DNA of 64,000 nt from Microvenator marinus (GTDB lineage Bacteria > Myxococcota_A > Bradymonadia > Bradymonadales > Bradymonadaceae), in the NCBI RefSeq assembly GCF_007993755.1, contig NZ_CP042467.1:2814001-2878000 (forward strand), given 5' to 3'. Numbering within the stretch: the stretch's first letter is position 1; each line of letters opens with the position of its first letter. The translations under genes and the position numbers were made by a program. The notes beneath the pieces are model-generated. The model was given only the letters and a program-made list of their open reading frames with translations, was not told where the DNA came from and made no database searches. This document shows, piece after piece, positions 1 through 5,017 of the stretch.

Positions 1-623
1 TATTCGCGCACGTGCCCACCCACGGACGCCACCTCGGCCACGCCATCCACCGCGAGTAGCGCGTAACGCACCGTCCAATCCTGAACGCTTCGGAGCTCGT
101 GCAGGTCCCAGCCGCCCACAAGTTTGGAATCCGGTCCAGGCGTGTGCCCCTCAAGCGTGTACCAAAACACCTGTCCAAGCGCCGTGGCATCGGGACCAAG
201 CATCGGATTGACTCCGCCTGGAAGCAGACCTTCACTCAAGGAATTGAGTTTTTCGAGCACGCGTGAGCGGGACCAGTAAAACTCGACGCCTTCCTCGAAG
301 ATCACATAGATGCTCGAGAAGCCGAACATCGAGTAGGAGCGCACGGTGCGAACGCCCGGAATGCCCAGGAGTGCCGTAGTGAGTGGGTAGGAAATCTGGT
401 CTTCAATGTCGCGTGGGCTGCGGCCCGGCCACTCGGTGAACACGATCTGCTGGTTTTCGCCGATATCCGGAATCGCATCTACGGGGACGGGATCTCGTGG
501 AAAGTCGGAATCCCACGCAAAGGGCATGGTGTAGAGCCCGCCAAACACGAGGAGGCCCATCAGAATCAGGACGATGAGCTTATTCTCGATGAAAAAGCCG
601 AGCGTGGTTTTCCAGGCGTTCAT
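1..623 (-). CDS. cusA: CusA/CzcA-type heavy-metal RND efflux pump (5' part)
   Basis: Inner-membrane proton-driven pump of a tripartite heavy-metal efflux system. Only the first 207 codons lie in the window; the gene continues past the left edge. The visible part has one N-terminal transmembrane helix (about residues 15-33, LIVLILMGLLVFGGL) and the start of the periplasmic porter domain with VDAIPDIGENQQ, PGRSPRDIEDQISYPL and WSRSRVLEKLNSL, a pattern of the heavy-metal (HME) branch of RND pumps. The ATG at 623 overlaps the adaptor stop codon in an ATGA, so translation is coupled. It is the third gene of a C-B-A ordered operon. The metal cannot be assigned from this piece; the metal-binding features of the adaptor next door favour Cu/Ag. 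Confidence 0.93.
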   Translation of the reverse strand, partial: MNAWKTTLGFFIENKLIVLILMGLLVFGGLYTMPFAWDSDFPRDPVPVDAIPDIGENQQIVFTEWPGRSPRDIEDQISYPLTTALLGIPGVRTVRSYSMFGFSSIYVIFEEGVEFYWSRSRVLEKLNSLSEGLLPGGVNPMLGPDATALGQVFWYTLEGHTPGPDSKLVGGWDLHELRSVQDWTVRYALLAVDGVAEVASVGGHVRE

Positions 624-2419
624 TTCGCCACCTGTTCCACGAGGTACGCTCCCGTGTTGACGGACTCCTCGATCTCCCCGCACATGCGCATCGTGGCGCC
701 AAAGTAGGCGTTATCGATCTTGCCTTCTTCCTGAATCCACGAGGCGCCACGGTTGTTGAAGGCCATCGGGCAATGGGCCAACGCGAGTGATTTTTCGGTG
801 GGATTCCCAAAGATTTTGAGAAGTCGTTCGATGGCTGCGCTCATCGGCTCAAACGGCGCGCGTGCGCCCTCGAGCGTAGTGGAGTTCCCGAGTGAACGCG
901 CGGAGTAGAGGAGTTCATCACGGACGGATTTCCACGCCGCCGCGAAAAGCTGACGGTCGGCATTCCCCATGCCGATGGCCTCAACGGCATTGAGCATCGT
1001 CTGGTTGGCGGCGATCGCATCGGAGTGGGAATCTTCAGCCAGCGCCTTTTGAATCTGGAGATAGGCGTCTACTACCGCGGCGAGCTGGGTCTTTTCGTCG
1101 GCGTTGATTTCGACCACGTCGTCGAGCGGGTTCTCTTGCGTATCGTCGGCATAGGACATCATGCTCAACCCCCCCCGGATCTGCAGATCCGCATCGAGCG
1201 CAAACGCACCGTGAATCACCACGCGCTCAGCCTCTTGAAGCCCGGCCACAACCGGGTAGACCGAGCCCATTTTGGGGCCCAGACGCACCTCACGGGAGGC
1301 GTAGGTAGGGACGTCCCGACCTGGCACCTCCACGTAAACGATGCTGCGGCGGCCGGTGAAAATTGGGGCCGTTTCGGGAATCACGAGAGGAGCCGCGCCA
1401 TCGCCGGAGCGCTCCACGGAGGCCTGAGCATACATGCCGGGCAGGAGTCGGCCGTCTGGGTTCTGGACTTCGACTCGGACCTTCGCCACACGGCGGCTCG
1501 CGTCGAGCACGGGATCGATGAATGCGATCTCGCCCTCATAAGCTTCCGGCAGACCATTGAACTCCAGTTTGACCCGTTGGCCGAGCTCCAGAAGTGCGAG
1601 GTCGGCCTCGTAGGCTTCGAGCTGGACCCAGACCGTGTTTAAGTTTGAAAGCTCGTAGAGCGGCTGTCCGGCACTGATATACGAGCCTTCCGCGGCGAGC
1701 CTCTCCACAACGGTACCCGCAAACGGGCTTCGAATCTGAATCTGCGTTCTAGGACTCGACTCGCCCTCCATCTTCTGAATCTCTGTGTCAGGGACGCCAA
1801 GTAACCTGAGCTTGGTGCGCGCCGCCTCGAGCGTGGTTTGCGCACCGCGCCGCGCCAGATCCGAAGCATCTTTGAGCCCCTCGACCTGCGCACGCGCCAC
1901 AACAAGCTCACGATGCGCGGCATAAACCTCCGGACTATAGAGCGTGGCAATCGTCTGGCCTCGCCGGATTTTCTGACCGGTCACTGTGACGTGGAGTTTG
2001 TCGATTCGACCGCCGATCCAGGCTGTGACCATGCGTTTGGACGACTCGTCTTCGTAAACCTGACCAAGTAGGCGAAGCCGCGAAGACTCGTCCAGAGCGC
2101 GCAGTACCGGGGCCGTGCGGATGCGAGCCATCTTGAGTGCGTGTTCGCTGAATTCAACCTCATTCGGAGCGAGCTCAGTTCCACCGGGCTTAAGCGGGAT
2201 GAGGTCCATGGCACAAATCGGGCAAAGACCCGGCTCGTTTTGTTTGACCTGTGGGTGCATCGAACAGGTCCACACCGTGCCATCTTCTTCAGCGTGGGCG
2301 TGCTCGTCGTGCTCTTCTTTCTCAGGGCTCGCGATGGAATAGCCGATGGCAAAAGCCAAAATCAGTCCAAGGACTACGGCCACTCGTTTGAGCCTGAATT
2401 TCTCGATCCATTGCTTCAT
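620..2419 (-). CDS. cusB: CusB-type RND periplasmic adaptor with heavy-metal-binding domain
   Basis: Membrane-fusion protein linking the RND pump to the outer-membrane channel. The 599 residues hold an N-terminal membrane anchor (14-30), a His/Glu-rich linker, a heavy-metal-binding domain at 49-76 (WTCSMHP ... LCPICAMDLIPL), the barrel-sandwich and coiled-coil core (about 100-430) and a C-terminal DUF3347-type domain (about 441-599) that ends with CPMAF and MRMCGEI, again Cys/Met rich. Such domains are known to bind Cu(I)/Ag(I) in CusB/CusF-like proteins; the metal is inferred here. ATGA overlaps tie it to the TolC-like gene upstream (2416-2419) and to the pump downstream (620-623). Confidence 0.93.
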   Translation of the reverse strand: MKQWIEKFRLKRVAVVLGLILAFAIGYSIASPEKEEHDEHAHAEEDGTVWTCSMHPQVKQNEPGLCPICAMDLIPLKPGGTELAPNEVEFSEHALKMARIRTAPVLRALDESSRLRLLGQVYEDESSKRMVTAWIGGRIDKLHVTVTGQKIRRGQTIATLYSPEVYAAHRELVVARAQVEGLKDASDLARRGAQTTLEAARTKLRLLGVPDTEIQKMEGESSPRTQIQIRSPFAGTVVERLAAEGSYISAGQPLYELSNLNTVWVQLEAYEADLALLELGQRVKLEFNGLPEAYEGEIAFIDPVLDASRRVAKVRVEVQNPDGRLLPGMYAQASVERSGDGAAPLVIPETAPIFTGRRSIVYVEVPGRDVPTYASREVRLGPKMGSVYPVVAGLQEAERVVIHGAFALDADLQIRGGLSMMSYADDTQENPLDDVVEINADEKTQLAAVVDAYLQIQKALAEDSHSDAIAANQTMLNAVEAIGMGNADRQLFAAAWKSVRDELLYSARSLGNSTTLEGARAPFEPMSAAIERLLKIFGNPTEKSLALAHCPMAFNNRGASWIQEEGKIDNAYFGATMRMCGEIEESVNTGAYLVEQVAK

Positions 2420-3600
2420 GGCTCATTTCCTTGATGTAGTTCGGGGGCCCATTCTTTGAGTTCAATCCACGCGGATTGGTGTCGGGCTTTGAGTTCAATC
2501 AGCTTGAGTTTGAGCTCTACGAGGTCTCTCTGGGCCAGCAACAAAGCGGTCACGCTGCCGTCTTGCTCGAAGTCGGCCACGCTTGATTCGAAGGCTGCTT
2601 CAGCCTGCGGCACAAGCTCAGAGTTGTAGAGTTCAATCTCTCGGGCACTTTCGTTGATTGCGACCAGCTTGGCATAAATCATACCGGAAGCCTTTTGGGT
2701 AAACACACGCTCTTCCGCGTCCGCGGCGACTCTTCGCGCCGTGGCCACATCTTCCGCGGCACGGTAGGTGCCGCGCCAAATTGGAATGGAGAAACCGACC
2801 ATCACCATATGAGGCATCTCCGTGTGTGGGCCGTGCTCGTATTCATATCCGACCGAAAAGTCTGGCATGCCTTGTGCCCCTGCGCTCTCCATCGCCTGCG
2901 CAATCTCGGCCTTTTGAGCGGCGATCTTTAGGAGTTCAGGATGCGAGGCGAGCTGCGCGGTGTAAGTTTTGGGATCTTGAACAGAACGGGGCGCGGGCAA
3001 GGTGTCAGGAGCTGAGTATCGCTTTGGATAATCATCGCCGAGAAGCGCGGCCATACGGGCCGAAACACCGTTTTCACGTGCGCCCAGGGCTTGGACTTCG
3101 TTTCTTAGCTTGGAGATTTGCAGCCCGATTTGATGCAGTGACGACGCCTTTGCCTGACCCACCTCCACACGCGCACTGACAGCCGAGAGCACTCCTTCCA
3201 GAATCTGAGTGAGCTCAGCGAGCCACTTTTTGCGCTCCTGAATCTCCCAGAGCTCAAGGGTCAAGAGCTCCACATCGCGTCTTAGTTCGCGGGCAAACAC
3301 ATCGGTTTGCGCACGCTCGACTTGAGCCCGGAGCCGCGCCTCTTCGGCCGGCCCAAGGACTTTTGTGGGCCACGGAATCATCTGCATGACCTCTACGCGA
3401 AACATTCCGGGCCAGTAGCCAAGCGTAACTTGCGGGTCGGGCCACCGAGTCATCGCGTCAGCTGAAACCTCAGCGACCTTTGCCCTAGACTCGATCAACC
3501 CAAGCTGTGGATGAGTCTCCAATGCACGGTCGACGTATTCTTCTTGTGCAAATGCCTCGTTCGCCACCAAAACCCCAAAGACTAATATCCAACGTCGCAC
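2416..3600 (-). CDS. cusC: TolC-family outer-membrane efflux channel of the metal efflux operon
   Basis: Outer-membrane channel of the tripartite efflux system. The 394-residue product has a signal peptide (MRRWILVFGVLVANEAFA, cut after AFA) and the two alpha-helical OEP repeats typical of TolC/CusC, with GYWPGMFRVEVMQMIPWP in the first half and SVGYEYEHGPHTEMPHMVMVGFSIPIW in two blocks in the second. The second block is Met/His rich, which suits a soft-metal channel. GTG start at 3600, with GAGG four bases upstream. It is the first gene of the operon and overlaps the adaptor gene by ATGA. Two palindromes lie 113-149 bp upstream of the start. Confidence 0.88.
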   Translation of the reverse strand: MRRWILVFGVLVANEAFAQEEYVDRALETHPQLGLIESRAKVAEVSADAMTRWPDPQVTLGYWPGMFRVEVMQMIPWPTKVLGPAEEARLRAQVERAQTDVFARELRRDVELLTLELWEIQERKKWLAELTQILEGVLSAVSARVEVGQAKASSLHQIGLQISKLRNEVQALGARENGVSARMAALLGDDYPKRYSAPDTLPAPRSVQDPKTYTAQLASHPELLKIAAQKAEIAQAMESAGAQGMPDFSVGYEYEHGPHTEMPHMVMVGFSIPIWRGTYRAAEDVATARRVAADAEERVFTQKASGMIYAKLVAINESAREIELYNSELVPQAEAAFESSVADFEQDGSVTALLLAQRDLVELKLKLIELKARHQSAWIELKEWAPELHQGNEP

Positions 3601-3712
3601 ATCGCCTCATCACAATTACCCGCACCATAGAATAGCAAGGCCTGTGCCGTAGGCCAGAAAAGGGCAAATTGTGTTGGTTATTGGACTTGAGGGAAGTGCA
3701 ACGAAGGCGGGG

Positions 3713-3728
3713 TGTGGAGCGTTCCACA
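3713..3728. promoter_or_regulatory. Operator-like palindrome 1 upstream of the cus operon
   Basis: Perfect inverted repeat TGTGGA-GCGT-TCCACA (6-4-6) in the 170-bp gap upstream of the efflux operon. It has the same form as the palindrome at 3734-3749; the two centres are 21 bp apart, two helical turns. No known regulator is matched with confidence: arm sequence and spacing do not fit LexA (CTGT-N8-ACAG) or the usual CueR/MerR, CusR or BlaI/CopY sites. A dimeric metal sensor binding in tandem is an inference. Confidence 0.6.
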
Positions 3729-3733
3729 GTTGC

Positions 3734-3749
3734 TGTAGACTATTCTACA
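3734..3749. promoter_or_regulatory. Operator-like palindrome 2 upstream of the cus operon
   Basis: Perfect inverted repeat TGTAGA-CTAT-TCTACA (6-4-6), five bases after palindrome 1. The joint consensus is TGTRGA-N4-TCYACA. The spacer bases differ between copies while the arms match, as expected for a protein-binding site rather than a chance duplication. A further short hairpin (GGCCT/AGGCC, 3639-3655) lies nearer the cusC start. Confidence 0.6.
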
Positions 3750-4720: not shown

Positions 4721-5017
4721 TTAGGACTCGAAGACCTCTTGAACAGATTCTGCGGTCACCAAGGCCTCGAGCCACTGCAGCAAACGGTGGCGATCATGGG
4801 TTCCTTCAAGAATCTGAATATGCTTTGGGTCAAGTGCAAGCCCTCGAGCCTCACAGACGTGAAGAATAGACTCTCGGAGCCCCTCTTCCTTGCCCTTCTC
4901 GATGCCCTTTTCGATGCCCTTCTCGATGCCTTTCTCGACACCTTCTTCGATGCCTTTCTCAAATGCCTCTGCTTTGAATTCTTCCCAAAATGTGCGTGTT
5001 CTCATGTCGAGCTCCAT
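4721..5017 (-). CDS. Short protein resembling the C-terminal part of Rpn/YhgA-type nucleases
   Basis: Product of up to 98 residues. After TFWEEFKAEAFEKG comes a run of EKG(I)-type four-residue repeats encoded by 12-bp tandem repeats (about 4885-4970), then a helical tail with CEARGLALDPKH and LLQWLEALVTAESVQEVF. This layout (charged Gly/Glu/Lys repeat, then an 'ARGL...I...LLxWL..A.T..S..EVF' tail) is what one sees at the C-terminus of Rpn-family recombination-promoting nuclease proteins; the catalytic PD-(D/E)XK part is missing. The ATG at 5005 has GGAG six bases upstream and is a better start than 5017. It is probably a remnant, as an Rpn-like N-terminal motif ends 70 bp upstream. Confidence 0.45.
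   Translation of the reverse strand: MELDMRTRTFWEEFKAEAFEKGIEEGVEKGIEKGIEKGIEKGKEEGLRESILHVCEARGLALDPKHIQILEGTHDRHRLLQWLEALVTAESVQEVFES

Follow-up and report, generated by a model that had tools for sequence, protein, structure and literature searches.

The two palindromes at positions 3713 to 3749 of the window, as we call the whole 64-kb stretch of DNA analyzed, are in all probability (about 0.86) paired upstream activating sites of a regulatory system composed of a DUF4118-type histidine kinase and an NtrC-family response regulator, which would activate the adjacent efflux operon from a sigma-54 promoter in response to metal. In the circuit proposed here, excess metal would be sensed by the kinase, which would phosphorylate its partner. 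Dimers of the phosphorylated regulator would bind both sites cooperatively on one face of the DNA, about 100 bp upstream of the transcription start, and then oligomerize and loop to sigma-54 RNA polymerase at 3650-3634, where the AAA+ ATPase of the regulator would open the promoter of the OEP-CusB-CusA-lipoprotein operon. Like site pairs would activate an HMBD-like lipoprotein gene in a copper island and, by autoregulation, the kinase/regulator operon itself. The sites, the promoter-like element, their spacing, the specificity of the tandem, its conservation and its co-occurrence with the regulator are read directly from the DNA. An orphan palindrome pair is thereby turned into a testable circuit with a regulator, a DNA site, a promoter class and target genes.

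Both perfect 6-4-6 palindromes claimed by the first-pass annotation are present with 0 mismatches. The proximal one, TGTGGA-GCGT-TCCACA, occupies 3713..3728 and the distal one, TGTAGA-CTAT-TCTACA, 3734..3749; no strand is assigned to either, and as candidate enhancer sites they have predicted centers at about -96 and -118. Their starts are 21 bp apart, so the four half-sites recur every 10 to 11 bp. Single palindromes of this kind are not rare in the window, which holds 26 of them versus a shuffle mean of 19.0 (standard deviation, 4.6), but the like pair is rare. It is the sole pair in the window that lies no more than 40 bp apart with arms agreeing at no fewer than 5 of 6 positions; a comparable like-armed pair appeared in none of 200 dinucleotide shuffles. 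The spacers, described earlier as unlike, do differ between the two sites but are not free in the wider family, in which ATAT, CTAT or ATAG is often found. A nonregulatory origin, as terminator hairpins of the lipoprotein gene upstream (stop codon, 3772) or as chance palindromes, would agree with the position of the sites directly downstream of the stop codon of a same-strand gene and with the abundance of 6-4-6 palindromes. However, no terminator-like site was called at the palindromes, on which ground an intrinsic terminator was rejected, and together with the shuffling result the association with metal-handling genes genome-wide and across lineages makes this origin extremely improbable.

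The operon starts with the gene for an outer-membrane efflux protein (OEP, CusC-like; 2416..3600, minus strand, GTG start), which is accompanied on the same strand by a periplasmic adaptor of the CusB/HlyD type with heavy-metal-binding (HMBD) and DUF3347 domains (620..2419) and by the start of a CusA-like RND pump gene (3..683), whose full length (G000:C1:2810904-2814683) runs beyond the window. After the CusA-type gene, outside the window, comes a lipoprotein gene whose product had no match in Pfam and was read by eye as HMBD-like from WYCDMG...CGMML. Methionines are retained in the CusA alignment at positions M573/M623/M672, which we take to be the numbering of the CusA Met triad. The OEP, the HMBD adaptor and a CusA-type pump with the Met triad, which together define a CusCBA Cu/Ag RND pump, were thus all found. 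The CusA methionines, the HMBD adaptor and the presence of a CopB, together with a copper-resistance-type multicopper oxidase, in the cluster of one relative (G001) point to copper or silver; Cu(I) is the most likely sensed metal, with Ag(I) as a second possibility. The OEP search in relatives returned mostly proteins with 19 to 30% identity, and promoters were therefore compared by gene type rather than by strict orthology. Elsewhere in the window, a 98-aa open reading frame (4721-5017, minus strand) contains tandem EKGI repeats and has no Pfam match.

A predicted sigma-54 promoter, ACGGCACAGGCCTTGCT (3634..3650, minus strand), is placed between the palindromes and the OEP start. Its box, ACGGCAC-N5-TTGCT, has a GG-N10-GC core near TGGCACN5TTGCW and 2 mismatches to YTGGCACRNNNNTTGCW, both at the 5' end, which counts against it. 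Only five boxes with at most 2 mismatches occur on the two strands of the 64-kb window. With the predicted start near 3623, the leader ahead of the GTG (3600) would be short; GAGG precedes this codon. One rpoN gene was detected in the genome (PF04552, E 8.4e-66). The palindromes are most likely upstream enhancers of this sigma-54 promoter, a role that was absent from the first-pass annotation, whose interpretation is in this sense partly supported.

The Microvenator marinus genome, a single contig (C1) of 5.85 Mb, was scanned for the motif and for its tandem arrangement. The single motif at no more than one mismatch was not enriched, with 39 sites versus 42 for the reversed control; perfect sites numbered three, two in the window and one at 3,171,206 in another metal-type locus. 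The annotation had named random frequency genome-wide as grounds for refutation, and since the single motif with one mismatch occurs at control frequency, it is formally rejected by this test, whereas the tandem is not. The 37-bp tandem (spacing of 21 bp, at most 3 mismatches in 24) was searched in 26 genomes of the order with a control alongside, giving three matches, all in M. marinus, with none in the control and none at the exact spacing in the other 25 genomes. The exact tandem with 3 to 7 bp between the sites occurred, among the same 26 genomes, only in the window. This confinement is attributed to degenerate partners or other spacings in the relatives.

The first tandem (3713-3749 of the window) precedes the OEP-CusB-CusA operon. 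The second, at 3,171,206 and with a degenerate second site, precedes an HMBD-like lipoprotein gene (L003 988-1341), and the third (3,155,436-3,155,472) precedes a WGR-type open reading frame (named by eye), a histidine kinase and an NtrC-type response regulator, indicating that in this genome the tandems mark only two metal-handling operons and one kinase/regulator operon. The lipoprotein at the second tandem is paralogous to the product of the final gene in the window operon (57% identity over residues 26-117), and the region of its gene also encodes an ECF sigma factor and a MerT-like protein, as well as two ATPases of the metal type. Downstream of each of the three tandems, on the strand of the gene, is a sigma-54 box, with 52 to 73 bp from the center of the proximal site to the -24 G; the box of the L003 gene, TTGGCACGGTTGGTGCA, stands at the equivalent position. 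A composite of an activating site, 45 to 75 bp and GGCA-N7-TGC was found in the genome only before the window operon and the L003 gene. In 377 genomes of the phylum it gave 6 matches in 5 genomes and 1 match for the control, with the gap and the core having been set after four of the six matches had been seen. Outside the order, the composite matched in G032 before an NtrC-type regulator gene and in G296 without an evident link.

The ECF sigma factor gene near the second tandem (L016:9754-10299, minus strand; 3,165,753-3,166,298 of the genome) adjoins a metal-type ATPase. Its product has a CxC motif and a Cys-rich C-terminus, which we take to resemble features of CorE, and a CorE-like gene in the copper island suggests dual copper control by ECF and sigma-54 factors as in Myxococcus.

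The distal palindrome is also overlapped by a sigma-70-like promoter (-10 TAGAAT at 3747-3742; 1 found, 0.3 expected), as would be expected if a dimeric metal-responsive repressor of the BlaI/CopY, CsoR, ArsR or TetR type masked the -10 element and were released by metal. The genome encodes three BlaI/CopY-family proteins, and one relative has such a protein in its copper cluster (L081). None of the three genes is near a tandem site, however, and repression agrees poorly with the sigma-54 boxes at similar distances in most loci and with the third tandem standing before an NtrC-type regulator operon; we regard it as very unlikely. As the annotation had stated for the consensus, no classical metal-sensor operator was recognized. 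The BlaI/CopY operator core is of the TACANNTGTA type, and here TGTA/TACA lie outside and TCYACA-N5-TGTRGA in the middle, so that the halves are inside out relative to that consensus. CsoR and CRP/FNR operators were set aside purely by reasoning from half-site shape.

The kinase and regulator genes downstream of the third tandem (G000:C1 ~3,150,400-3,152,800) lie about 333 kb from the window operon, and the response regulator (L116 5371-6747) is the candidate trans-acting factor. The earlier remark that no regulator gene lies beside the operon is therefore correct locally, but a candidate is encoded at a distance, and the motif is not orphan because the paired site also precedes this kinase/regulator operon. 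Co-occurrence and the tandem before its own operon suggest that the regulator binds the palindromes; copper as the signal, activation as the mode of control, and autoregulation are likewise inferred. A small lipoprotein-like open reading frame with a YHS-like motif, YFCCKGC (L116:10508-10936, plus strand), is divergent from the WGR-kinase-regulator operon at the same enhancer pair.

The orthologous regulator of the relative G007 consists, by Pfam, of REC, AAA+ and Fis-type HTH domains; the M. marinus regulator is 54% identical to it and contains the GAFTGA motif. Receiver and AAA+ motifs are retained in nine aligned regulators. GAFTGA is replaced by GAVTGA in G025 and by GSFTGA in the Desulfuromonadales and Geobacteraceae regulators. 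A signature at the end of the HTH, RHxLxYRx[EQ]K, was found in 11 of 11 orthologues and in five distant ones, and in none of 19 other NtrC-type regulators of the order. Among the best NtrC-type response regulators of the order that are not orthologues, several (L096, L098, L099, L100, L102, L105, L108, L114 and L115) have GAFTDA where GAFTGA would be expected and may therefore not activate sigma-54. The G007 kinase has DUF4118, HisKA and HATPase domains and no HAMP match in Pfam. The M. marinus kinase is 45% identical to it, and P76-H77-A78-F79-F80 and H83 are invariant in the aligned kinases. The NtrC-type regulator preceded by the composite in G032 is encoded in another family of bacteria, is 48% identical to the M. 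marinus regulator and carries the HTH signature; a perfect TGTAGAATATTCTACA (L212 1589-1604) stands 52 bp before its gene, with a sigma-54-like box present.

The sites could instead be sigma-54 enhancers of another regulator, either a second kinase/regulator paralogue (L117, ~2,233,700; G000:C1:2233790) or another NtrC-family protein, with a signal other than copper, such as envelope stress or zinc. The genome has 63 regulator matches, the DNA specificity of the paralogue may overlap owing to its identical HTH signature, and in the consulted part of PMC7657598 ZraSR appears as a metal-linked sigma-54 system able to serve envelope stress. Of the two paralogues, however, only the operon at 3.15 Mb has the tandem, which is absent near the second, and in relatives the genes targeted are of the metal ATPase, efflux and HMBD-like kinds, making this assignment very unlikely.

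Control by the DUF4118 kinase and its NtrC-type partner is also consistent with the loci of relatives, in which gene names were assigned by eye unless a family call is given. Regulators at least 50% identical to that of G007 numbered 11 in 10 of the 26 genomes, with the next best at 45%, and the kinase/regulator orthologues adjoin copper-type genes and paired sites of like geometry. In G007, the kinase/regulator genes are separated from a cus operon by two perfect sites at a distance of 24 bp, and in G023 from an OEP gene by a pair of sites. The G001 sites stand before a metal ATPase gene and before a Cys-rich gene/cus operon. In G009, one pair separates an ATPase gene from a divergent HMBD-like gene, both of which have a sigma-54 box of their own (3 mismatches), and a second pair precedes the kinase/regulator genes. 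Weaker pairs precede HMBD-like genes in G021 and G025, and the regulator locus of G025 has a weak pair only. No tandem was found near the regulator orthologues of G003 (17 kb), the second M. marinus paralogue (14 kb), or G018 and G002 (contigs of 4 to 5 kb). Exact TGTAGANNNNTCTACA sites occur six times in the order, once (L127) without a metal gene or promoter.

Site spacing was 20 to 24 bp in 10 of the 11 promoters tabulated and 31 bp in the other, consistent with the earlier proposal of cooperative, in-phase sites for a dimeric regulator before a metal-efflux operon. Counted from predicted starts, the proximal site was centered at -82 to -84 in six promoters, at -96 in two, and at -74, -76 and -104 in the others.

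CusRS/CusCFBA of Escherichia coli is a familiar case of a CusCBA-type Cu/Ag RND pump governed by a two-component system, and similar control is proposed here; unlike CusR, which is OmpR-type and acts at a sigma-70 promoter, the candidate regulator is NtrC-type and would act with sigma-54. The NifA enhancer is TGT-N10-ACA. TGTRGA-N4-TCYACA has this shape, and its position about 100 bp upstream of the -24/-12 element resembles NifA/NtrC-type enhancers, but the inner RGA/TCY is fixed and the HTH is distinct from that of other NtrC-type regulators.

By analogy, the nearest precedent is CorSR of Myxococcus xanthus (PMC3707914), a likeness that rests on architecture. According to the consulted part of that paper, the CorSR response regulator combines REC, sigma-54-interaction and Fis-HTH domains, its promoters are putative sigma-54 promoters, its own genes belong to the curA copper operon, and the ECF sigma factor CorE acts in parallel. 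In architecture the proposed system fits this pattern, with the regulator domain set, predicted sigma-54 boxes, its own operon among the predicted targets and a CorE-like gene in the copper island. CorS is reported to have HAMP and a periplasmic sensor, whereas the present kinase is of the DUF4118 type with no HAMP match; curA comprises a multicopper oxidase and an ATPase, whereas the target here is an RND efflux operon; and no enhancer site was found described in that part of PMC3707914, in contrast to the defined paired enhancer proposed here. Enterobacterial ZraSR/ZraP, as outlined in the consulted parts of PMC7657598 and PMC4987338, is also similar in having an NtrC-type regulator, sigma-54 promoters, and a link to metal, and in controlling, besides a periplasmic metal-binding protein, the genes of the system itself from divergent promoters. 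It differs in serving zinc and envelope stress and in having no RND pump, and its enhancer is listed as "not known" in a Salmonella table in that material. The G007 orthologue scored 373 bits against the NCBIfam ZraR equivalog, for which the cut-off is 760, and the ZraS model was also below its cut-off.

The literal site strings were found in no paper of the literature searched, nor was a description of the site, and the search for DUF4118, copper and histidine kinase returned unrelated work only. The consulted parts of PMC4641369, PMC2864759, PMC12316311 and PMC7460792 describe no such site. The mechanism class is known; within it, the proposed DUF4118-kinase/NtrC copper-type circuit with its own DNA code appears new and is well supported by the sequence comparisons.

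Beyond the order, 80 named loci were gathered through kinase alignment alone. A site with no more than one mismatch was found near metal-efflux genes in three of the eight best kinase loci, in metagenome-assembled genomes of Eisenbacteria (L129), Desulfuromonadales (L133, site twice) and Geobacteraceae (L136), each near kinase/regulator genes and near genes assigned by eye to the OEP, CusA and/or HMBD types. In the other 72 loci such a site was found in four, none of them with a sigma-54 box. Tandems with at most 4 summed mismatches are present in the loci of G000, G007, G001, G009, G023, L133 and L136 and absent from 980,020 bases of the 72 background loci, where one occurred at 5 mismatches.

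Read jointly, these observations tentatively suggest, at somewhat less than even odds, a copper circuit extending across several phyla, with DUF4118 kinases, NtrC-type regulators bearing RHxLxYRx[EQ]K and one enhancer code. The kinases, with conserved histidines (PHAFF...H) in their membrane segment and apparently no large periplasmic domain, would detect Cu(I) within or at the membrane, the code would consist of pairs of TGTAGA-N4-TCTACA spaced by about two turns of the helix, and the targets would be Cus pumps, Cu ATPases and HMBD-like lipoproteins transcribed from sigma-54 promoters. If the circuit proposed for the window operon is right, a single DNA signature could serve to assign copper operons of Myxococcota, Desulfuromonadales and others that have no adjacent regulator gene, and DUF4118, a sensor domain of unknown function in these kinases, would gain a likely ligand. 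A proper -12 GC is missing at the L133 and L083 promoters. In L133, at ~5530 and ~365, TTGGCAT/GTGGCAT is followed by TGA where the -12 TGC would stand, which may represent a variant sigma-54 box.
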